In this document: piece by piece, positions 6,175 through 60,475 of the stretch
Numbering within the stretch: the first letter of the stretch is position 1
Layout: the number at the start of each line of letters is the position of its first letter
Assembly: GCF_000317145.1 (NCBI RefSeq)
Contig: NC_019697.1
Coordinates: 2,356,001-2,420,000 of the forward strand
Length of the DNA stretch: 64,000 nucleotides
Direction: 5' to 3'
Source: Chamaesiphon minutus PCC 6605
GTDB taxonomy: Bacteria > Cyanobacteriota > Cyanobacteriia > Cyanobacteriales > Chamaesiphonaceae
Translations under genes and position numbers: made by a program
Notes under the pieces: model-generated
The model's database searches: none
Told to the model about the DNA's origin: nothing
Seen by the model: only the letters and a program-made list of their open reading frames with translations

Positions 6175-6779
6175 CTAATTAACCAACCGAGCGCGATAAG
6201 CGTGCCAGAGATGTCCGACTAAAGCAGTAATAGCTAAGAAAAATTGACTTGCAGCGGCAAAAGATCGATCCCATAAAATTTCACCGGAAAAGCAGTAGTA
6301 TTCAACCCCACAAAAGCACAGCTTACTAACGCCATAAATGCCAAACTACCCATGAGAAATCGGGAGAAAGTGATTTCCACCAAATTTCTCAGTCTTTTCC
6401 CAATTCCTGACTCAATGAGGGCTAAATCCTGTCACTAAAAAAGGAATATTTTGCAATAATGGACTAGTCAAGTTAGGAGTTTTATCCTGTCCGCCAGCCC
6501 CGACTCCAAAACCTACTGTTGCCAAGTGTGGGAGCAAAATTAGCCCTTGTTGGAACATCGGCTGGGGTCGTAGTGGGAAAGCTCAAAGATGGTCATCGAT
6601 TCCGCCCACAGTAAGATTAGCCCTGCGTGGGCGATATGCGCTCCTAAGAGTCGCCCCGACAAATTTGTCAGTCTGGCATTCCCCGCCCACCAAGGAGCGA
6701 TTCTCCAGAGGAGAGGCTGTGCCTAACGGCAGGCTATCGCCAACGCCAACGGGGCTGGATTTACTGCTGTTGCTGTCAT
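6175..6779 (-). pseudogene. isiA: Degenerate isiA / CP43-like chlorophyll-binding protein gene
   Basis: Pieces of a CP43/IsiA-type antenna protein are readable on the minus strand in several frames. After the ATG at 6779 comes TATAVNPAP. A repeat-derived insert with stop codons follows. Next is [26 protein letters not shown], at about 6600-6680. Downstream, after a frame change, is [22 protein letters not shown], and the end reads SQFFLAITALVGHLWHAYRAR before a TAG at 6175. Only about 600 bases remain of the roughly 1 kb expected, with internal deletions, frameshifts and an inserted short repeat. A functional IsiA cannot be made. Its place before isiB is the ancestral isiAB order, so the promoter may still drive isiB. 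Confidence 0.82.
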
Positions 6780-6942: not shown

Positions 6943-8037
6943 CTAAAAAGTCTTTTGCTGCGATTGTTTAAGAATAATCCAAGCAATAATCGGTGTGCCA
7001 ATTAGTGCCGTTACTGAATTAATCGGTAACACAGATCGACCTCCAGGCATTTGAGCGATAATATCTGCTACCAGTGCAAAACTTCCCCCCACGAGACTCG
7101 CCGCCGGGAATAACCAGCGCAAATCGGCGGTTCGCAATAATCCTCGACACAAATGGGGCACGGAAATGCCAATAAAGGCGATCGGGCCACAAAAAGCGGT
7201 TACGATGCCAGCTAAGAGTGAAGAACTAACTAGTACCAGTAGGCGTAACCGCTCGATCGAAATTCCTAGACTTTGCGCTTGGGTTTCCCCCAATAGCAAC
7301 GGATTCAGCGACGGCGCGACGAGAATTGCCAGGATTAAACCACTCAAAATGCCGATACTCATCAGCGGTAACTGCTCCCAAGTCACCCCGCCAAAACTAC
7401 CCGTCGTCCAATTGAGATAGGATTTGACAGGCTCGGCGGTACTAAAATAGAGCAACAGCTCCACCATCGCCCCAGTACCATAGCCAAACAACAGCCCCAG
7501 CACGAGTAAACTTGTCGAACTCTGCACTCGCCGCGCGACGATAATTACTAACCCTGTCACGATGCCCGCGCCCAAACAAGCAGCAACGATCGTACTATAA
7601 CGCCCGATCGCGCCCAAACTAGCTAAACTGATACCAAATAGTTGCGTCCCTAATATTACTAAAGCTACGCCCAAACTAGCACCCGCACTAATCCCTAGTA
7701 CAGATGGCCCTGCCAAAGGGTTATTAAATAAGGTTTGTAGTTGCAATCCACTTGTCGATAAAGCGGCTCCAGCTAATATGGCGGTAATTGCTTTAGGCAA
7801 TCGAAATTGGATGATAATATCGCTCCAAGACTCTTTTTGGGGAATGCCACCGAGTAAAATAGTGACGACATCACTTAGAGGAATAGATACCGAACCCATT
7901 GCTAAACTAGTCAATAAGATCGGAATTGGTAGGATGAATAACAGTCCTAAAACAATCTGATGACGCTTTATTCTCGGCCTTTTTAATGTCGCTGGCTGTC
8001 GGTCGATCTGTTGTGGTGGTGCTGGATTAATTGGCAT
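6943..8037 (-). CDS. FecCD-family iron transport permease, second subunit
   Basis: Inner-membrane permease of 364 residues in the FecCD/BtuC family. A long polar N-terminus (about 25 residues) precedes the first membrane segment. Hallmarks are FRLPKAITAILAGAALSTSGLQLQTLFNNPLAGPSVLGISAGASLGVAL and the GPIAFIGISVPHLCRGLL loop near the C-terminus. The C-terminus ends in a soluble KQSQQKTF tail. It is likely the partner of the permease at 3186-4211, fed by the binding protein at 8875-10098. A plus-strand gene now lies between it and that binding protein, so it must have its own promoter within a very short region (29 bases to 8067) or within the neighbouring gene. Confidence 0.92.
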   Translation of the reverse strand: MPINPAPPQQIDRQPATLKRPRIKRHQIVLGLLFILPIPILLTSLAMGSVSIPLSDVVTILLGGIPQKESWSDIIIQFRLPKAITAILAGAALSTSGLQLQTLFNNPLAGPSVLGISAGASLGVALVILGTQLFGISLASLGAIGRYSTIVAACLGAGIVTGLVIIVARRVQSSTSLLVLGLLFGYGTGAMVELLLYFSTAEPVKSYLNWTTGSFGGVTWEQLPLMSIGILSGLILAILVAPSLNPLLLGETQAQSLGISIERLRLLVLVSSSLLAGIVTAFCGPIAFIGISVPHLCRGLLRTADLRWLFPAASLVGGSFALVADIIAQMPGGRSVLPINSVTALIGTPIIAWIILKQSQQKTF

Positions 8038-45499: not shown

Positions 45500-46222
45500 T
45501 TAGAAATAACAATTAACAATCAGACAATTAATCACATTTTCTGCTGGATTTCCAACTTTCAAAACCGAAAAAATTTCATCTATTAGTACGGTCGAGTTAG
45601 CTGAGTCGGACGAATTTTGACAAATTAAAGATTGGATTTGAGATTGGATTTGTTGCTGGCAGATGCTGGCCACTGGAGCGTCAAACTTTATCCTAGATGT
45701 TTCGTTTGGTGCTGTAGAACTCACAAAAGCGATCGTCGCACGACGATCGCTAATCATCCATGTCTGGATATTATCTAAACCTGTTTCCGCTGCGCTGTCG
45801 CGATCGAGAATGTTCGCAGAGCCACCCGCAAATAGTAGCGGGTTTTCTTTCTCGGCGACTAACGACAGGACTGGAGTTGCCGATGGCTGAGACTCATGAC
45901 AACGTTCTAGCACCGATCTAATATTACTTTTACAAATATTTTCGCCCAACAATTTAGAGAGCACTTTCCATAATCTGGCAGCAATTTGTTTGATGTAATC
46001 CAGATCGTATGAATAGCGACTAGCGATCGATTTATAAGTACTACCTTTCCATATATGCAAAACGATCGTTGATTCTAGATCGTTGAGTTTGCGGTGTTGC
46101 GATCGATCCAGCAGACGATCGATCGATCTAATTGCTTGCTGTCCAGTCATCATGATATTCAGTTGTAAAGAAATTTTTAATCCGTTCCGATCGATCTCGA
46201 TCTGTTGATTTTTCTGTGTCAC
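45500..46222 (-). CDS. Orphan vWA-MoxR-associated-type HTH protein
   Basis: A 240-residue protein with an N-terminal HTH-like part (RKLNDLESTIVLHIWKGSTYKSIASRYSYDLDYIKQIAARLWKVLSKLLGENICKSNIRSVLER). This resembles the effector-associated N-terminal domain of cyanobacterial NB-ARC, WD40 and vMAP proteins. The C-terminal half has no domain I recognise. In larger proteins this domain is linked to NTPase and repeat domains; here it is alone, perhaps a remnant or a stand-alone adaptor. The start at 46222 has no strong ribosome site, and MMTGQQ at residue 24 is an alternative. Confidence 0.6.
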   Translation of the reverse strand: MTQKNQQIEIDRNGLKISLQLNIMMTGQQAIRSIDRLLDRSQHRKLNDLESTIVLHIWKGSTYKSIASRYSYDLDYIKQIAARLWKVLSKLLGENICKSNIRSVLERCHESQPSATPVLSLVAEKENPLLFAGGSANILDRDSAAETGLDNIQTWMISDRRATIAFVSSTAPNETSRIKFDAPVASICQQQIQSQIQSLICQNSSDSANSTVLIDEIFSVLKVGNPAENVINCLIVNCYF

Positions 46223-46420: not shown

Positions 46421-47746
46421 ATGAGTATTCTAAATATCAACGATCTAGCCCTGCAACTAGTAGCCCTCGATTTTAGCGATGAGCATTCACCGAACAATGT
46501 CGGACCAACAAAAACTTCTCGCGCTTTAGCCATCATTCACCTGGCTGCCCATGATGCCTATGCACAAGTAACCAAAAAGTTTAAGCCCAGACTTGAAGAC
46601 ATCCCTGCCCGTCCATCAACTCTAGATACTAGCGAAGCTACAGGCTCTACTGCGCTACTCTGTGCTGGTTTCCGTGCCGCAACACTACTTTATCCCGACT
46701 TTAAAGAATTCATCGACACAACAGCAGCAAATTTTTTCAATCCTAATGATGGAGATTGTTGTAGCAACTTAGCCTGTAAATATGGCGAACAGATCGCCGA
46801 TGCCTGGATTGCCCACAGAATGAATGATGGCTCCTCAGCACCACAACTTGACACTTTATATAACCAAGCAGCCGGACGACATCGCCCCGATCCCCTGCGA
46901 CCACAGCAACAGACACTTGGACGCAATTGGGGATTGGTAAATCCGTTTGTGCTATCTAGTGTCTTTACAGATGCCTTTTTGAAAGCCCCACCACCTTTAG
47001 ATTGCCCTGAGTATGCAACAGCTTTTAATGAAGTAAAGAGAGATGGCAAGAACGATCTGCCCCAGAAAGCTCCAGACAAAGCAGTTATCGGTATTTTCTG
47101 GGGTTATGATGGTGCCAATAAAATTGGCGTACCACCACGTCTTTACAACCAAGTTATTCGAGCGATCGAGGATTTTCAAAAACTCGAACACGATCGTCAA
47201 ATTAAGATATTGACTGCAATTAACGTGGCGATGGCAGATGCTGGAATTGCATCTTGGTATTGGAAATATCTATATGATGTTTGGCGGCCAGTTGTCGGCA
47301 TTCGCGAAGCTGATGCTGGCTGGGGTCCAAAAGGTCAGGGTGATAAAAATCCGGCGACAACAGGAGATCCATTCTGGTTGCCTTTAGGTGCGCCTAATAG
47401 CAACCCGATTAATCAACCTGCAAGCAATGGCACACCAAATTTTCCGGCCTATCCTTCTGGTCATGCAACTTTTGGAGCGGCTTGCTTTGAGACGGCTGCG
47501 GCCTTAATGGGGAAGACACCGGAAGAAATAAATGTGAAGTTTGTTTCCGATGAATTCGACGGTGTAACTACTGACAATACTGGAGCCGTCCGTCCCAAAT
47601 ATGAAGCAAATTTCTCCCTGCGCAAGGCGATTATGGATAATAATCAAAGTCGGATTTACTTGGGCGTACACTGGCAGTTTGATGCTACTGGTGGCGAGGA
47701 AGTCGGTAAGGCGATCGCTATCAAAGTTGCTGAAGCTTTCAAATAA
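46421..47746 (+). CDS. Vanadium-dependent haloperoxidase / PAP2-superfamily protein
   Basis: A 441-residue PAP2-superfamily enzyme. The vanadate-site signature is complete: K-x6-RP at Lys282-Arg289 (KYLYDVWRP), PSGH at 345-348, and S-R-x5-H-x3-D at 410-421 (SRIYLGVHWQFD). It probably oxidises halides with H2O2 to halogenate organics. No signal peptide is seen. It stands alone with its own terminator. The family also includes acid phosphatases with the same fold, but the length and spacing favour haloperoxidase. Confidence 0.85.
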   Translation: MSILNINDLALQLVALDFSDEHSPNNVGPTKTSRALAIIHLAAHDAYAQVTKKFKPRLEDIPARPSTLDTSEATGSTALLCAGFRAATLLYPDFKEFIDTTAANFFNPNDGDCCSNLACKYGEQIADAWIAHRMNDGSSAPQLDTLYNQAAGRHRPDPLRPQQQTLGRNWGLVNPFVLSSVFTDAFLKAPPPLDCPEYATAFNEVKRDGKNDLPQKAPDKAVIGIFWGYDGANKIGVPPRLYNQVIRAIEDFQKLEHDRQIKILTAINVAMADAGIASWYWKYLYDVWRPVVGIREADAGWGPKGQGDKNPATTGDPFWLPLGAPNSNPINQPASNGTPNFPAYPSGHATFGAACFETAAALMGKTPEEINVKFVSDEFDGVTTDNTGAVRPKYEANFSLRKAIMDNNQSRIYLGVHWQFDATGGEEVGKAIAIKVAEAFK

Positions 47747-47783
47747 ATTAATTTAAGTAACAAGACTATTTGGTTTAACTTTG

Positions 47784-47809
47784 TTCGATCCGAAGTTGTT
47801 CGGATCGAA
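47784..47809. other. Perfect hairpin after the haloperoxidase
   Basis: TTCGATCCGAA and TTCGGATCGAA flank GTTG, 37 bases after the stop. It lacks a T-run and may stabilise the 3' end. Confidence 0.6.
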
Positions 47810-47833
47810 TAAAGTCAATGTCTAATCATTATC

Positions 47834-47860
47834 AAGAGTAGCGATCGCTACTCTTTTTTG
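47834..47860 (+). terminator. Rho-independent terminator
   Basis: AAGAGTAGC-GATC-GCTACTCTT followed by T-rich sequence, about 90 bases beyond the haloperoxidase stop. A near-identical hairpin terminates the operon at 51753. Confidence 0.85.
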
Positions 47861-48085: not shown

Positions 48086-48961
48086 ATGAAAAAAGATAAA
48101 ATTAGTACTCGTGGTATTATTCTCTCAACTGTCCTGATTGCATTAGTTAGTGGTTGCCGCTCTAATGATGATTATAATAAATTAGGAATGGCGGGATCTA
48201 AGTATATTGATGCTGTCAATTTGCTATTAGAGGAAGCTGCCGATACTAGAATTAATTTAAGTTCGGAGCAGATTTTAGCTAACGATCGAGGCACAGTAAG
48301 TATTAATGACGCAGAATATAACAAATTTTCAAATTCAGATAGAGAGGGACTCAAAGAGATTAATAGAATTATCGAACATAATCTTCTCCTAAAAAGATAT
48401 TTTAGTTTGCTTCAGGAGCTGGCAAATTCAGATGCCCCACAAAAAGCTGAGGCCGAAATCGAACGAGTTGCTGAAAATTTAATTCAACTTGGTAAGGTGA
48501 TAGATGGAGATGGTACCACAACAACAGCTAGTAGTACTTTAGGATCTGGAGTTAATTTTATTGTCAAACTACAAATTCGTGCTGCTCTCAAACAGGAGCT
48601 AGAAAAACGAGGTAAATTAATTAGTAATGAATTAAAGATTCAGGAAGAGGCTTTGCAAAAAATTAATAGCAGATTACTGCAACAAAAAAGACTATTATCG
48701 CAATTACAAGAGAACCGATTAGTAGTTAGGTCGATTACAGCATCTATTCCAATCGGTAATGAAGATGGCTGGATAGCAATCAGACAAAAAGTTATCAAAA
48801 CCAATGTCATGTCCGAGAAGTTTAATAATGCTAGTTTGGCATTAAGTGATTTTAGAAAGATTTTCGAGTCTTTCTTAGAAGGCAAATCGGATCTTGCTGC
48901 CATTAATAATTTCTTGGTAGAAGTAGAATCATTTACGAAATTAATATCTGAGCGTAAATAA
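48086..48961 (+). CDS. Lipoprotein of unknown function, first gene of a five-gene unit
   Basis: A 291-residue predicted lipoprotein with a lipobox ending LVSGC (Cys24). The rest is mostly helical with coiled-coil heptads, such as LKIQEEALQKINSRLLQQKRLLSQLQENR. No known domain is recognised. Four genes follow closely on the same strand, and the set ends at a strong terminator. The gene may mediate envelope anchoring for its partners. Confidence 0.75.
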   Translation: MKKDKISTRGIILSTVLIALVSGCRSNDDYNKLGMAGSKYIDAVNLLLEEAADTRINLSSEQILANDRGTVSINDAEYNKFSNSDREGLKEINRIIEHNLLLKRYFSLLQELANSDAPQKAEAEIERVAENLIQLGKVIDGDGTTTTASSTLGSGVNFIVKLQIRAALKQELEKRGKLISNELKIQEEALQKINSRLLQQKRLLSQLQENRLVVRSITASIPIGNEDGWIAIRQKVIKTNVMSEKFNNASLALSDFRKIFESFLEGKSDLAAINNFLVEVESFTKLISERK

Positions 48962-49004
48962 GAAGCTTTATCACACATCGTTAATTTAAACATACATCAA
49001 AACC

Positions 49005-49355
49005 ATGAGTACATCACTAACAGATTTAGACAAACTACGAGATGAGGATATTGAGAAATTATTAGCTTTAGAAGTAGAGCTATATTCCTCTGCCAAGCAA
49101 AAATGGTTTGAGGACAACGCAGATCTAGACGAACAAACAGATTTTAAAAACAAACGAGTCGAGCTATCAACTAAGATTGCGGCGTTAGACACGATCCGAA
49201 TCAAGAAGATAGCAAATAAATTTGCAGCTAATCAAGAAGAATTGAGTGATGGGATTAAAAAGCTATCGGCCACAATCAAAGAGTTGAAAAACGCGATAGA
49301 AACTCTCAACCAAATCGGCACATTAATCGGCACTATCACTAGAATTTTAGTATAA
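49005..49355 (+). CDS. Small coiled-coil protein
   Basis: A 116-residue charged helical protein with no signal peptide (STSLTDLDKLRDEDIEKLLALEVELYSSAKQKWFED ... ELSDGIKKLSATIKELKNAIETLNQIGTLIGTIT). It probably forms an extended helix or oligomer. I do not recognise a family. It lies 43 bases after the lipoprotein and 36 bases before the next gene. Confidence 0.7.
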   Translation: MSTSLTDLDKLRDEDIEKLLALEVELYSSAKQKWFEDNADLDEQTDFKNKRVELSTKIAALDTIRIKKIANKFAANQEELSDGIKKLSATIKELKNAIETLNQIGTLIGTITRILV

Positions 49356-49391
49356 ACTATTTATCCTACTTGTAAACGTAACCAAACAGTC

Positions 49392-49802
49392 ATGACAATA
49401 GTAACTGATTTTCTCAAAAAGGTTGTAGAGTACAATACTCCCTCAGAGTGGAGAGAAAGTACAAAATTAATTACAGCTACGTTCCTGGCTATTAGCTCGT
49501 GGAGCTTACTAGGATGGCTGGCTTATTCACAATTTAAAGCTAGCGAATCGTTTGCTCTTCAACTTGCTGCCACTACATCTACTGACAAAGATCGGATCGC
49601 ACTGATTAAAGATGCTAATGAAACAGTTAATAAAACTGCTAGTTCTCTATATGCATTGTTAATTCCGATCGCCTCCGCTATTACGGGATATTTCTTTGTA
49701 TCTTCAGCCACCGCATCGCCTCCAAAAGAGCGCGATCGTCTGTCCGGATCGTTGCCATCAAATACTACTTCATCAAGCCTTGCACCAGATCCCAAGCTTT
49801 GA
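49392..49802 (+). CDS. Two-TM membrane protein of unknown function
   Basis: A 136-residue protein with hydrophobic segments LITATFLAISSWSLLGWLAY (about residues 25-45) and LYALLIPIASAITGYFFVSSA (about 95-115). The intervening and terminal parts are polar; the C-terminus is Ser/Pro-rich. It sits between the coiled-coil gene and the first hydrolase and may anchor the soluble partners. No family recognised. Confidence 0.7.
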   Translation: MTIVTDFLKKVVEYNTPSEWRESTKLITATFLAISSWSLLGWLAYSQFKASESFALQLAATTSTDKDRIALIKDANETVNKTASSLYALLIPIASAITGYFFVSSATASPPKERDRLSGSLPSNTTSSSLAPDPKL

Positions 49803-49830
49803 CAAAAATATTAATTGGAGCTAATCGAAG

Positions 49831-50778
49831 ATGGCAACAGATTATATTATCTTCGTTCACGGCGTAAAAACTAGAGAACGAGATCTATTCGAGCGAACGG
49901 CGAGCGAGATGTTTGCACGAATGAAACCATATTTACAATCCGATTCATCAAGAACTTTTAAGCCAATTACTTTATTTTGGGGAGATATCGCCGAGGATTC
50001 TACCAATCTAATTCTGAATGCACTCAAGGATTCGCCTACCTGGAGCCAGTTTTGGTTTCAAAAATTTCGGACAGAACAGGTAATTCCATTTGTCGGCGAT
50101 GCTGCTCTCTATTTGAGCCGTCATGTTAGCGTTCAGATTATTAAGCAGATGACGGCTCAAGCCATAGAACAAATGGGACTCGATCTAGAGGAAATCCAGC
50201 AGAAGTCAAAACCAGATGGCGATCGATTGCATCTAGTTACCCATAGTTGGGGTACGGTGATTTTATTCGATATTATGTTTGCAACTCGGTGGGAAGATGT
50301 CAGCCTCGATCCTGAGATTATTGAATTTGTCAATACTCTTCGCAGTTGCTTTTTTGGAGTTGGTAACCCAGAGATTAACGATCTAGGGATGCCGATCGCC
50401 AGTATTCATACGATGGGATCGCCAATTTCATTATTTAATCTACTCAATGCTTCTGGAGCGAAGAGTTTCAATCTTACACCCGAACTCAAGAATTTTCTGA
50501 GTTCTTTGTATCAAATAACTGGAAAACCTTTGCCGTGGTTTAATTATACTCATCCCGGCGATCCGCTCGCCTATCCATTAAAAGGTGTGATGGATTTATC
50601 GCTCGGCGATGCTAATAAATTTGTGACGCTCGAAGATATCATCGCGCCGACTAATTCTTGGTTGCAATTTTTCAACCAAAATATCATATCGATAATTCAA
50701 GGTGGCGAAGCTCATAATAGTTATTGGACTAACGAACTAGTCAGCCAAAAGATCGGACAGGTAATTCAGTCATGTTAA
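49831..50778 (+). CDS. Lipase-like alpha/beta hydrolase
   Basis: A 315-residue protein starting YIIFVHGVKTRERDLFERTASE, the oxyanion loop (HGVK) of esterase/lipases. The nucleophile is in HLVTHSWGTVILFDIM (HSWGT), and a late candidate His is in GGEAHNSYW. Similar hydrolases occur with signalling or defence partners, but no specific match comes to mind. It overlaps the next hydrolase gene by seven bases. Confidence 0.75.
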   Translation: MATDYIIFVHGVKTRERDLFERTASEMFARMKPYLQSDSSRTFKPITLFWGDIAEDSTNLILNALKDSPTWSQFWFQKFRTEQVIPFVGDAALYLSRHVSVQIIKQMTAQAIEQMGLDLEEIQQKSKPDGDRLHLVTHSWGTVILFDIMFATRWEDVSLDPEIIEFVNTLRSCFFGVGNPEINDLGMPIASIHTMGSPISLFNLLNASGAKSFNLTPELKNFLSSLYQITGKPLPWFNYTHPGDPLAYPLKGVMDLSLGDANKFVTLEDIIAPTNSWLQFFNQNIISIIQGGEAHNSYWTNELVSQKIGQVIQSC

Positions 50779-51668
50779 AAGATTGGGATGAGTATTATCT
50801 AGCTCGCATGAATGGCAAGCAAAAATTTGATGTGCGCGATGGTTGTCATCCGCTGATATTTAGATCTGGAGCTGCGAATCGCAATGCGATCGTGTTAGTA
50901 CATGGATTGACAGATTCTCCCCATTTTATGAGAGATATCGGCGAATATTTCTGTACGGAGATGGGTTTTGATGTGTATATTCCCCTCTTACGCGCTCATG
51001 GTTTGAAAGATCCTCAAGATATGCGAAATGCATCGGCGATCGAATGGAAAAAAGATGTCCAATTTGCGATCGCCGCAGCTAAAACCAGCGGTGGCAAAAT
51101 ATCGATCGGCGGATTGTCAACTGGCGGGACATTAAGCGTCGAGATGGCTCTAACCGATGGATCGATCGATGGCGGAGTTTTCCTCTTTTCTGCGGCTTTA
51201 GGTTTAGCTTCTCAGGCTGGCAATCTGGGTGAGATTTTGCTCAGAACCCCTTTAGCAGATATGCTCGATTTTTTTGATAATGCAGATCTAATTGATGATT
51301 CACCCAGTGGTAATCCCTTTCGATATGCCAAGATGGATATCGGTGGAGCGAAAGAACTCTCTACGCTCATCGCAAAATTGGATATTTTGACAGCGAATCC
51401 TCGATCTATCGTGCAGCCGTTATTTGCAGTGCATTCCGAAGCCGATACCACAGCGGATATCGATCTCGTCGCCAGACTAGTCAAAACATCTCCACACGCT
51501 CAAATGTTTAGAATTGGCAAAAACTTCAACGTCCCTCACGCCAGCACTGTACTCAAAAGTCCCGTGCGATCCCTTAATAATTCACCGTTGGAGCCGCACA
51601 ATCCTTTTTTCACAGACATGATGAAATCATTACATGCATTTGCGCTCGATCGACTATCTCATAGCTGA
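50772..51668 (+). CDS. Alpha/beta hydrolase (carboxylesterase-like)
   Basis: A 298-residue hydrolase. AIVLVHGLTDSPHFMRDIGEYFCTEMGFDVYIPLLRAHG is typical of carboxylesterase/monoglyceride lipase proteins. The nucleophile is in ISIGGLSTGGTLSVEMAL (Ser in GLSTGG). Acid and His candidates are in VHSEADTTAD and VPHAST. Two unlike hydrolases in one operon suggests processing of related ester or lipid substrates. The unit ends with the terminator at 51753. Confidence 0.85.
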   Translation: MLKDWDEYYLARMNGKQKFDVRDGCHPLIFRSGAANRNAIVLVHGLTDSPHFMRDIGEYFCTEMGFDVYIPLLRAHGLKDPQDMRNASAIEWKKDVQFAIAAAKTSGGKISIGGLSTGGTLSVEMALTDGSIDGGVFLFSAALGLASQAGNLGEILLRTPLADMLDFFDNADLIDDSPSGNPFRYAKMDIGGAKELSTLIAKLDILTANPRSIVQPLFAVHSEADTTADIDLVARLVKTSPHAQMFRIGKNFNVPHASTVLKSPVRSLNNSPLEPHNPFFTDMMKSLHAFALDRLSHS

Positions 51669-52208
51669 GGATCGTCCTCAGCCCGCACGCTCCGGTTGGC
51701 GTAGCCTCTAAGAATCAGAATCGAACCAACCACTTAAATATATCTATACATGGAGTAGCAATTGCTACTCTTTTTTTGTCGGTACGCTCGTGGAGTTTCG
51801 ATCTACCCTCTACCCTCTACTCTGCCATCTGTAGCCCTACTAAAGCGAATTGGTATTAAACGCTCTGCGCGCAAAGGTTTTAGTCGATCGATTCGTGGCG
51901 AGGACGATGCTGTAATCCCATGTGCTGCTGATTACAAAGGACAACTAATAAGAATACTTATAGATTTTATTCGATATTCTGTTGAAAAATTCATTGCCAT
52001 CCTCTATACATAGAGAAATAGATGAGATAAGCTTAGTTATTAATGGAACAAATCTATATATCGATTAATGGAATCAGTTAATAAGCCATCGATCGAAATG
52101 ATTTCATAGGAAAAATTCTATCGTTTGTAAATATCTAACTCTATCGACTTCAGTAACTCTCAAAGCACGGGCGACGAACCATTAAATATACATTCAACAA
52201 GGAATTAT
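51669..52208. other. Intergenic region before nrtA
   Basis: A repeat piece GGTTGGCGTAGCCTC is at about 51694 and a terminator at 51753. An 83-codon plus frame from 51762 reads low-complexity, repeat-like protein and I do not accept it. The last 190 bases hold the likely nrtA promoter; no perfect NtcA site (GTA-N8-TAC) was found. Confidence 0.5.
51753..51777 (+). terminator. Rho-independent terminator of the five-gene unit
   Basis: GAGTAGCAATTGCTACTC followed by T7, about 85 bases after the last hydrolase stop. Confidence 0.85.
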
Positions 52209-59048: not shown

Positions 59049-60475
59049 GGTTCTCCAGTACCTAATGTGCTAAATCAATAATTGAATCTCCAAGTTAGCA
59101 AGCATCTGTTTCGGAAGTTGTTGAAATTAGTGAAGCCATAAGCAGTACGCTTGATGAGCTTAATCTTATTATTAATTCCCTCAACTACACCACTAGTAGT
59201 TCGCTCATCAAAGTAAGCAACTATCTCTGTTAACCATCGCGAGATTGTGCCACAACTATTTGGCAAATGCTGCTTGGCTCTTACCAGCCAATGTCTAATT
59301 TCAATAGTCCTCTCATCCACGATGTTGTTTTTTCCATTATCTCTCTCCATTTTTCTTTGAGTAGATGTGCTGCCCTAATGTTGGCAAATTCTTCTCTAAC
59401 CTGCTTGAGCTTCTCTTGTTCTTTCTCCTCTCTTAACTCTTTTTTCTTTTTTAGCAGCGCATATTTACTCGATTTTATTACTGCCAATTGCCGAGTGTAT
59501 TCATTCTTTTGCTCTAATGTCTTTGCGGATTTAAGTTTAGCCTCTATCGCTCTTTTTTCTTGTTTTCTCAGCTTATCTAACTCACTATTTATTTGCGCTG
59601 TTACATGAAATCTGTCTGCTACTACTTGAGCATTAGGCATCACTTCTATCGCTAAGCTTTTATACCCTTTCCATAAGTCTATGCTGACTTCTTCGATCCT
59701 TTCCAGTACCTCTGTCCCCCATCCTTTCAGGATTTTCTCTATTTCTTCACTCTTTCTGCTTTCGATTATTGCTAATAATTTTCCTCGCTCTATATCTACT
59801 AATACTGCACAATATTTTCCTTGTCCTTTTACCATTGCTATTTCATCTATTCCCAGTTTTCTTAAATCCGTTGGCTTTTCTCCGTTTAGCTCTGCTGCTG
59901 CGTCTTCAATTATTCTCTCTATTTCTGCTGTCGTCATTACTCCTGTTCTAGCTACGCTCTGAATATCTCCTTCTAGTGCTTCTGCTAGGATTTTTTAGCT
60001 AGTCTTGAAGTATATGTTCTTCTGCCTTTAACAAATTCTAGTTGTTCGCTAAATGGTTTTTGACATTTTTTACATTTAAATTGTCTTCTGTTTATTTCTA
60101 GGTGAACTTGCTGCTCTCCCCACGGCAAATCTTTTACTATGTATCTATTATTCTGATGTAAGCTACTACTCTTCGTTCCGCATCTATGGCATTTGCTTTC
60201 TTTCTTTATTGCTTCTACCTGTAAGATGATGCCTATTCCTTCATATTGTCGCTGCGACTCTACTCGCATTCCTTCTATTCCTAATAGCTCCGTTAGTAGC
60301 TTGAGTTCCTTTTTGTTGCCACTTGCCCTGCCCGCCGCTCTTCTTACTATTTCTTCCTCTCTTCATTATCTTGCTTTTCCTCTCCTCGTCAGCAGTTTTG
60401 ACATATTTATTTTATTTTCTTTCTCTTGTACTGCCTCGATTCTCATTTAATTAGCACATTAGGTACTGGAGAACC
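59049..60475 (-). mobile_element. ISL3-like insertion sequence, 1427 bp
   Basis: Perfect 25-bp terminal inverted repeats (beginning GGTTCTCCAGTACCTAATGT) lie at 59049-59073 and 60451-60475. Flanking CTTTTTCT repeats of 8 bases fit ISL3-type insertions. The only gene content is a transposase on the minus strand, broken by two frame changes. The intact ends and duplication show a recent insertion. Confidence 0.93.
59075..60269 (-). pseudogene. ISL3-type transposase, frameshifted
   Basis: Three reading frames together make one ISL3 transposase. The first (60269 to 59985) has the zinc-ribbon part CHRCGTKSSSLHQNN ... FKCKKCQKPFSE. It ends at a six-A run (LAKKS stop), where a minus-one shift would continue LAKKILAEALEGDIQSVARTGVMTTAEIER in the second frame. 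The second (to 59281) has the DDE core with LGIDEIAMVKGQGKYCAVLVDIERGKLL and DLWKGYKSLAIEVMPNAQVVADRFHV. After LLKLD a further shift leads to WLVRAKQHLPNSCGTISRWLTEIVAYFDERTTSGVVEGINNKIKLIKRTAYGF, ending at 59075. The A-run could be a programmed slip; the second break looks like a one-base deletion. Confidence 0.85.

Follow-up and report, generated by a model that had tools for sequence, protein, structure and literature searches.

The stretch of DNA analyzed here (the window) comprises 64,000 nucleotides (nt) of the Chamaesiphon minutus PCC 6605 genome, which spans 6.76 Mb in three contigs, and it harbors a compact run of five genes enclosed by two hairpin terminators. A first-pass annotation had read this run as a single unit of a lipoprotein, a coiled coil, a two-transmembrane protein and two alpha/beta hydrolases, and the lipobox, the hydrophobic segments and the Pfam matches all agree with these identities. 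The five open reading frames (ORFs) lie on the + strand as it had described. Gene 1 (48086..48961) encodes an all-helical lipoprotein of 291 amino acids (aa) that belongs to no Pfam or NCBIfam family, and gene 2 (49005..49355), the constant neighbor of gene 1, a 116-aa coiled coil whose hydrophobic C-terminal helix is conserved. Gene 3 (49392..49802) codes for a 136-aa protein with two transmembrane helices, gene 4 (49831..50778) for a 315-aa alpha/beta-type serine hydrolase with the motif order of DDHD/phospholipase-A1-like enzymes, and gene 5 (50772..51668) for a 298-aa alpha/beta hydrolase resembling bacterial monoacylglycerol lipase (bMGL). Genes 1 to 4 are separated by 43, 36 and 28 base pairs (bp), and genes 4 and 5 overlap by 7 bp.

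The upstream terminator (47834..47855, +; 9-bp stem, 4-nt loop, T run) lies behind a haloperoxidase gene and the downstream one (51752..51771, +; 8-bp stem, 4-nt loop, T run) behind gene 5. Their near identity, also remarked upon in the first-pass annotation, is upheld: both belong to a 24-nt direct repeat in which 22 of the 24 positions coincide and a matched swap of G/C to A/T at the other two preserves the palindrome. The minimum free energies are -14.1 kcal/mol upstream and -11.5 kcal/mol downstream (z -4.95 and -3.54 against shuffled sequences). The motif is found twice in the window, where 0.08 matches are expected, and exactly twice in the whole genome, both times at the unit, with none in the reversed control; the upstream terminator is one of two genome copies of AGTAGCNNNNGCTACTCTTTTT. 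Only four hairpins in 364 kb sampled from the genome combine a perfect stem of at least 7 bp with a T run, and two of them are these terminators, while across 137 loci the motif is absent from 132 and the remaining five all cover the window's own region. The terminator frame around the five genes is real and specific. The stretch from the haloperoxidase stop codon to the first terminator holds a further, very stable hairpin (47778-47815; 17 pairs, -24.8 kcal/mol, z -7.5) that lacks a T run. No Rfam element was detected up to an E-value of 0.1.

Conservation of the whole set is another matter. The proposal that the five genes form one conserved system was rejected, since the parts do not co-occur in the other genomes examined, and genes 1 and 2 never stand beside genes 3 to 5; for the set as a whole, this is the outcome that the first-pass annotation had named as refuting its proposal. 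The neighborhood search suggested in the first-pass annotation did recover two smaller associations, the pair of genes 1 and 2 (10 of 10 loci) and the pair of genes 4 and 5 (one genome), but not the five-gene set.

The second of these pairs consists of two serine hydrolases. Gene 4 presents the motifs H-S139-W-G, HPGD244P and AH295xSYW in this order, and H138-S139-W140-G141, D244 and H295 are invariant in all 11 aligned members of its family. D244 may be the acid residue, other Asp residues being invariant as well. As a single sequence, gene 4 matches the Pfam DDHD profile with an E-value of 0.0067 and 17.0 bits, against a cut-off of 28.3 and over profile positions 7-65 of 258 only; nevertheless, DDHD is matched by 11 of 11 aligned family members (best 8.3e-7). 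Comparison with solved structures yielded no significant match by sequence, and an AlphaFold2 (AF2) model computed without an alignment reached a predicted local distance difference test (pLDDT) score of just 34. Relatives of gene 4 occur in 110 of the 388 genomes of the class at E <= 0.001 (the window's own included), many of them weak, and in 3 of the 11 genomes of the family.

Gene 5 matches Pfam Hydrolase_4 above the cut-off (2.2e-9), and its residues S116, D225 and H256 are the same in all six sequences aligned. Its best solved relative is a bacterial monoacylglycerol lipase (2.1e-12 for gene 5 alone, 1.9e-18 with the family profile). The alignment to this enzyme spans residues 21-207 and includes the nucleophile S116 within GGLSTGG, a GxSxG elbow, while D225 and H256 lie beyond it, as it stops at about residue 207. 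The bMGL triad, described as Ser-97/Asp-196/His-226 in PMC3829422, would be a fitting counterpart of S116/D225/H256. Matches to gene 5 were obtained in 114 of the 388 class genomes, of which, beyond the window, six (G275, G188, G217, G317, G235 and G348) show at least 42% identity over most of the protein; the others are generic hydrolases. G217 and G317 each encode a protein of 851-885 aa in which a gene-5-like domain is joined to a lipase-type domain, the latter identified as Lipase_3 (1.7e-7) in a Pfam scan run on the G317 protein only. Counting the window and the sister-genus genome described below (G396), the gene 5 family is thus tied to a second lipolytic enzyme in four of eight genomes; no obvious lipase lies next door in G275, G188 or G348, and the G235 locus is cut by a contig end. 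The large two-hydrolase-domain proteins at L110 2272-4827 and L109 4973-7630 (gene-5-like plus lipase-type) begin with some 220 aa that have no Pfam match.

Genes 4 and 5 are adjacent in G396, with 52% and 65% identity, the same order and a 41-bp gap. The gene 5 copy of this genome was found by reading beside gene 4; the gene 5 query search covered none of the ten family genomes other than the window's own, G396 among them. The gene 4 homolog of G396 scores 17.7 bits against DDHD. A lipoxygenase/catalase-like gene precedes gene 4 there, and gene 5 is followed in turn by an ORF of 155 aa, a gene for a P-loop protein and one for a protein that has hydrophobic stretches. The lipoxygenase/catalase-like gene (L113 8194-10674, -) codes for an 826-aa protein that matches Pfam Lipoxygenase at 4.8e-10 and Catalase below the cut-off, and it ends 89 bp before gene 4. 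On the opposite strand of the same region, about 7 kb from genes 4 and 5, a gene 3 homolog (44-50% identity) is preceded by an NB-ARC/WD40 protein and followed by a patatin and a class-3 lipase. This row, a STAND/WD40 protein, the gene 3 homolog, a patatin of the type found in the cyclic-oligonucleotide-based antiphage signaling system (CBASS) and a class-3 lipase (L113 10972-17587, +), is a candidate conflict island. Its patatin matches the phospholipase effectors of PADLOC at 4.5e-66, and no nucleotidyltransferase match indicating a CD-NTase was obtained among the nine proteins scanned (for the WD40 protein, among the best 25 of 64 families).

Gene 3, whose hydrophobic segments lie at residues ~26-44 and ~85-104, is found in 6 of the 388 class genomes and in 2 of the 11 family genomes. 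Its neighbors elsewhere are diverse: by eye, a nuclease-like gene in G018; a protein of ~860 aa without Pfam match in G265 and G066; and small RHH-type proteins in G129 (RHH_3, 0.0013) and G348 (recognized by eye, without Pfam match). Taken with G396, these few loci suggest that members of the gene 3 family serve as membrane partners in varied contexts. The ~860-aa proteins, which come from two genera, are located at L055 3989-6568 and L057 3052-5667.

The lipoprotein and coiled-coil pair has a different history. Gene 1 carries the lipobox-type signal LVSGC, and an N-terminal hydrophobic stretch followed by Cys is comparable in all eight aligned sequences. Nothing in Pfam matches gene 1 at E <= 1, its seven homologs match only scattered families (best 0.006), and no Pfam or NCBIfam match describes the pair. 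An AF2 model from three sequences is all-helical at a pLDDT of only 51.5, and gene 1 has no significant match among solved structures. It is present in 8 of the 388 class genomes, the window's own counted, and in 2 of the 11 family genomes, namely the window's own and G396, where it reads as two pieces across undetermined bases; the genus sample consisted of nine genomes, again including the window's own. In a search of genome contigs, gene 1 as single query gave no match, and an alignment of three gene 1 sequences retrieved two loci, L081 and L082. L081 coincides with L048 and is counted once, which leaves ten distinct loci: the window, seven from the class, G396 and L082.

In all ten, gene 2 directly follows gene 1 in the same orientation, as an ORF of 114-146 aa at a distance of -8 to 71 bp. 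BLAST alone detects it in four of the seven class loci, whereas leave-one-out hidden Markov models score the members between 1.2e-14 and 1.8e-31, against 0.012 for the best non-member among 885 ORFs. Weak matches of gene 2 to LegC2/C7- and MukB/LmuB-type proteins were judged to be coiled-coil noise and set aside. At the other nine gene 1 loci, BLAST found no match to genes 3 to 5, and in the three genomes that contain both gene 1 and a gene 4 match (G013, G033 and G115) the two are more than 1 Mb apart. Base composition also sets the pair apart: gene 1 has the lowest G+C content of 289 ORFs (0.344 against a mean of 0.465) and gene 2 is at the 1st percentile, whereas genes 4 and 5 are at the 12th and 36th. 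Hence, genes 1 and 2 look like a separate module, perhaps a later addition to the cassette. One gene 1 locus (L047) adjoins MobA/RepB and a ParA-like gene, and another (L050) has two truncated copies of the lipoprotein N-terminus (6458-6625 and 7305-7475) upstream of the intact homolog, a picture suggestive of duplication and decay of the module.

Upstream of the unit, the haloperoxidase-like gene (46421-47746, +) matches PAP2 just below the cut-off and VCPO_N below it. It is matched in 4 of the 11 family genomes, with close relatives in G393 (78%) and G396 (70%) and distant matches only (35% and less) in G397. Behind the G393 and G396 genes there is neither gene 1 nor such a hairpin, and the five-gene unit is absent; a clean empty insertion site was not found there, and the downstream flank differs. 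An orphan 240-aa protein without an ATPase is encoded 1.9 kb upstream of gene 1 (45500-46222, -) and also beside the haloperoxidase gene of G393; its N-terminal part matches the N-terminus of the NB-ARC/WD40 STAND protein of G396 (50.6% over 83 aa). Further downstream, an insertion sequence (IS) transposase is split into two pieces (59281-60269, -), of which 59281-59937 matches ISL3 and an adjoining 94-aa ORF resembles its N-terminal part. Two possible origins of the unit were considered and discarded. For a phage origin, gene 4, gene 5 and the gene 1 family have no relatives in viral contigs, and PHROGs matches are at 0.0067 or weaker; for a plasmid origin, gene 1 has no match in plasmids and gene 4 a single one, at 24% identity.

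Our favored interpretation, to which we assign about an even chance, is that of an accessory, operon-like cassette that this lineage has built from parts normally found separately, with genes 4 and 5 as a lipid-hydrolyzing core. The five genes would presumably be transcribed together. Gene 4 may be a cytosolic enzyme of the phospholipase or galactolipase A type that takes one acyl chain off a diacyl lipid, and gene 5 would then remove the remaining chain or clear the mono-acyl products, this two-step deacylation freeing fatty acids that could be recycled or oxidized to oxylipins. Gene 3 might hold or gate both enzymes at the membrane, and genes 1 and 2 would be a module joined upstream, made up of a helical lipoprotein in the envelope and a cytosolic or membrane-peripheral partner, whose link to the hydrolases we can only conjecture. 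The lipolytic part of this proposal follows from family resemblance, from the conserved catalytic residues and from neighbors that are themselves lipid enzymes. Among the three roles put forward in the first-pass annotation, lipid processing is therefore the best supported, whereas nothing in the window is positive evidence of defense; a signaling or defense role for the unit is possible.

Several observations weigh against this interpretation. The substrates of gene 4 and gene 5 are guesses from family resemblance, and no usable structure supports them, as the AF2 models of genes 4 and 1 (pLDDT 34 and 51.5) are too weak. Gene 4 is usually solitary, with no gene 5 BLAST match at any of 20 loci examined out of the 30 best, and it has no constant partner, recurring neighbor families appearing in four loci each. 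The five other gene 3 loci have no lipase next door. Genes 4 and 5 are adjacent in only one other genome, of the same family, so that the arrangement may simply have been inherited from a common ancestor, with no functional need for it. Finally, the unique terminator pair argues that the genome treats the five genes as one transcription unit, which is unexpected for a pure chance patchwork.

Such a patchwork, in which five unrelated accessory genes with minor metabolic or envelope roles have come together by chance in one genome, is nonetheless the first alternative to be weighed. The whole set has been seen once and each part is found elsewhere without the others, as this explanation would have it, but two sub-pairs are conserved, the gaps of 28-43 bp and the 7-bp overlap are tight, the terminator pair enclosing precisely these five genes has no other copy in the genome, and gene 5 is fused to a lipase domain elsewhere. 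We consider it unlikely. A more specific role, in which genes 4 and 5 supply a lipoxygenase with polyunsaturated fatty acids and ultimately give rise to signaling or anti-grazer compounds, draws on the lipoxygenase-matching protein that precedes both genes by 89 bp in G396, on a lipoxygenase match ~0.9 Mb away in the window's own genome and on the vanadium-haloperoxidase-like gene before the unit. The G396 arrangement is, however, confined to a single genome, its lipoxygenase having no relative in the other 20 gene 4 loci examined, and lipoxygenase matches (4 of 11 family genomes) and gene 4 (3 of 11) overlap only in G000 and G396. This reading appears improbable to us, more so than chance assembly.

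A defense or programmed-death function occupies an intermediate position and is likewise doubtful. Genes 3 to 5 would be a membrane-attacking effector module, with genes 1 and 2 or a regulator encoded elsewhere as the sensor, and upon a trigger the two hydrolases would degrade the lipids of the cell's own membrane. The position of the G396 gene 3 homolog between a STAND-type protein and a PADLOC-matching patatin is a lead in this direction rather than a test of it, to which may be added the stand-alone homolog of the STAND N-terminal stretch upstream of gene 1, the patchy distribution and the odd base composition. Published predictions also link alpha/beta hydrolases to conflict systems, beside caspases or fused to death-like domains (PMC7159879, PMC8195603), but neither partner is seen at the unit. 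The defense-island check advocated in the first-pass annotation came out negative: PADLOC gave no convincing match for the five proteins or the two upstream neighbors tested (genes 1, 3, 4 and 5 had none, and gene 2 matched long MukB-like/LmuB models only weakly, at 0.00049 and 0.015), and no match to a nucleotide-signal enzyme or caspase was obtained among the window proteins scanned. The gene 4 family is widespread and solitary, as expected of a housekeeping lipase, and the neighbors in the window are transporters, the haloperoxidase-like gene and an IS. Far-fetched as it presently seems, one could also envisage genes 1 and 2 as an undescribed envelope sensor pair wired to gene 3 and the two hydrolases. 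Together they would form a modular conflict system that degrades the cell's own membrane, its effector sets (gene 3 with patatin and lipase_3, or gene 3 with genes 4 and 5) being exchanged between the loci of related cyanobacteria.

Whichever reading prevails, the five-gene unit is now split into separate pieces that are open to test. The lipoprotein/coiled-coil pair is conserved in scattered cyanobacteria and undescribed by Pfam and NCBIfam, and gene 4 represents a widespread cyanobacterial family of DDHD-like hydrolases with no close solved relative by sequence. The paired hydrolases, if their link to lipoxygenase and patatin holds, would reveal a cyanobacterial source of free polyunsaturated fatty acids, to be used in making oxylipins or in the destruction of the cell's own membrane. 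Literature listings on oxylipins, Chamaesiphon and DDHD showed nothing about the five-gene unit.

With regard to known systems, the CBASS-type patatin effectors (CapV-like) recall the unit in that a G396 gene 3 homolog adjoins one of them and membrane-lipid hydrolysis is a plausible outcome in both cases, but the window's unit has neither a patatin nor a nucleotide cyclase, and no CD-NTase was found among genes 1 to 5. Another cyanobacterial lipase, LipA of Synechocystis (sll1969), is a class-3 lipase, and its likeness to the unit is one of concept. LipA is intracellular and releases free fatty acids from membrane lipids (PMC8583886). Closer parallels exist for the two hydrolases. Gene 4 shares with DDHD phospholipase A1 (PF02862) the profile match, a serine-hydrolase elbow and a conserved C-terminal His; it differs in having T-H-S-W-G instead of G-x-S-x-G, with HSWG invariant in 11 of 11 sequences and T or A in place of the first G, and in leaving the remaining three quarters of the profile unmatched, the window protein itself falling below the curated cut-off. 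Gene 5, in turn, is ~30-50 residues longer than the solved bMGL enzymes of Bacillus sp. H-257 and its Geobacillus relatives, and has in common with them the GxSxG elbow; its invariant Asp and His may correspond to those of their triad.

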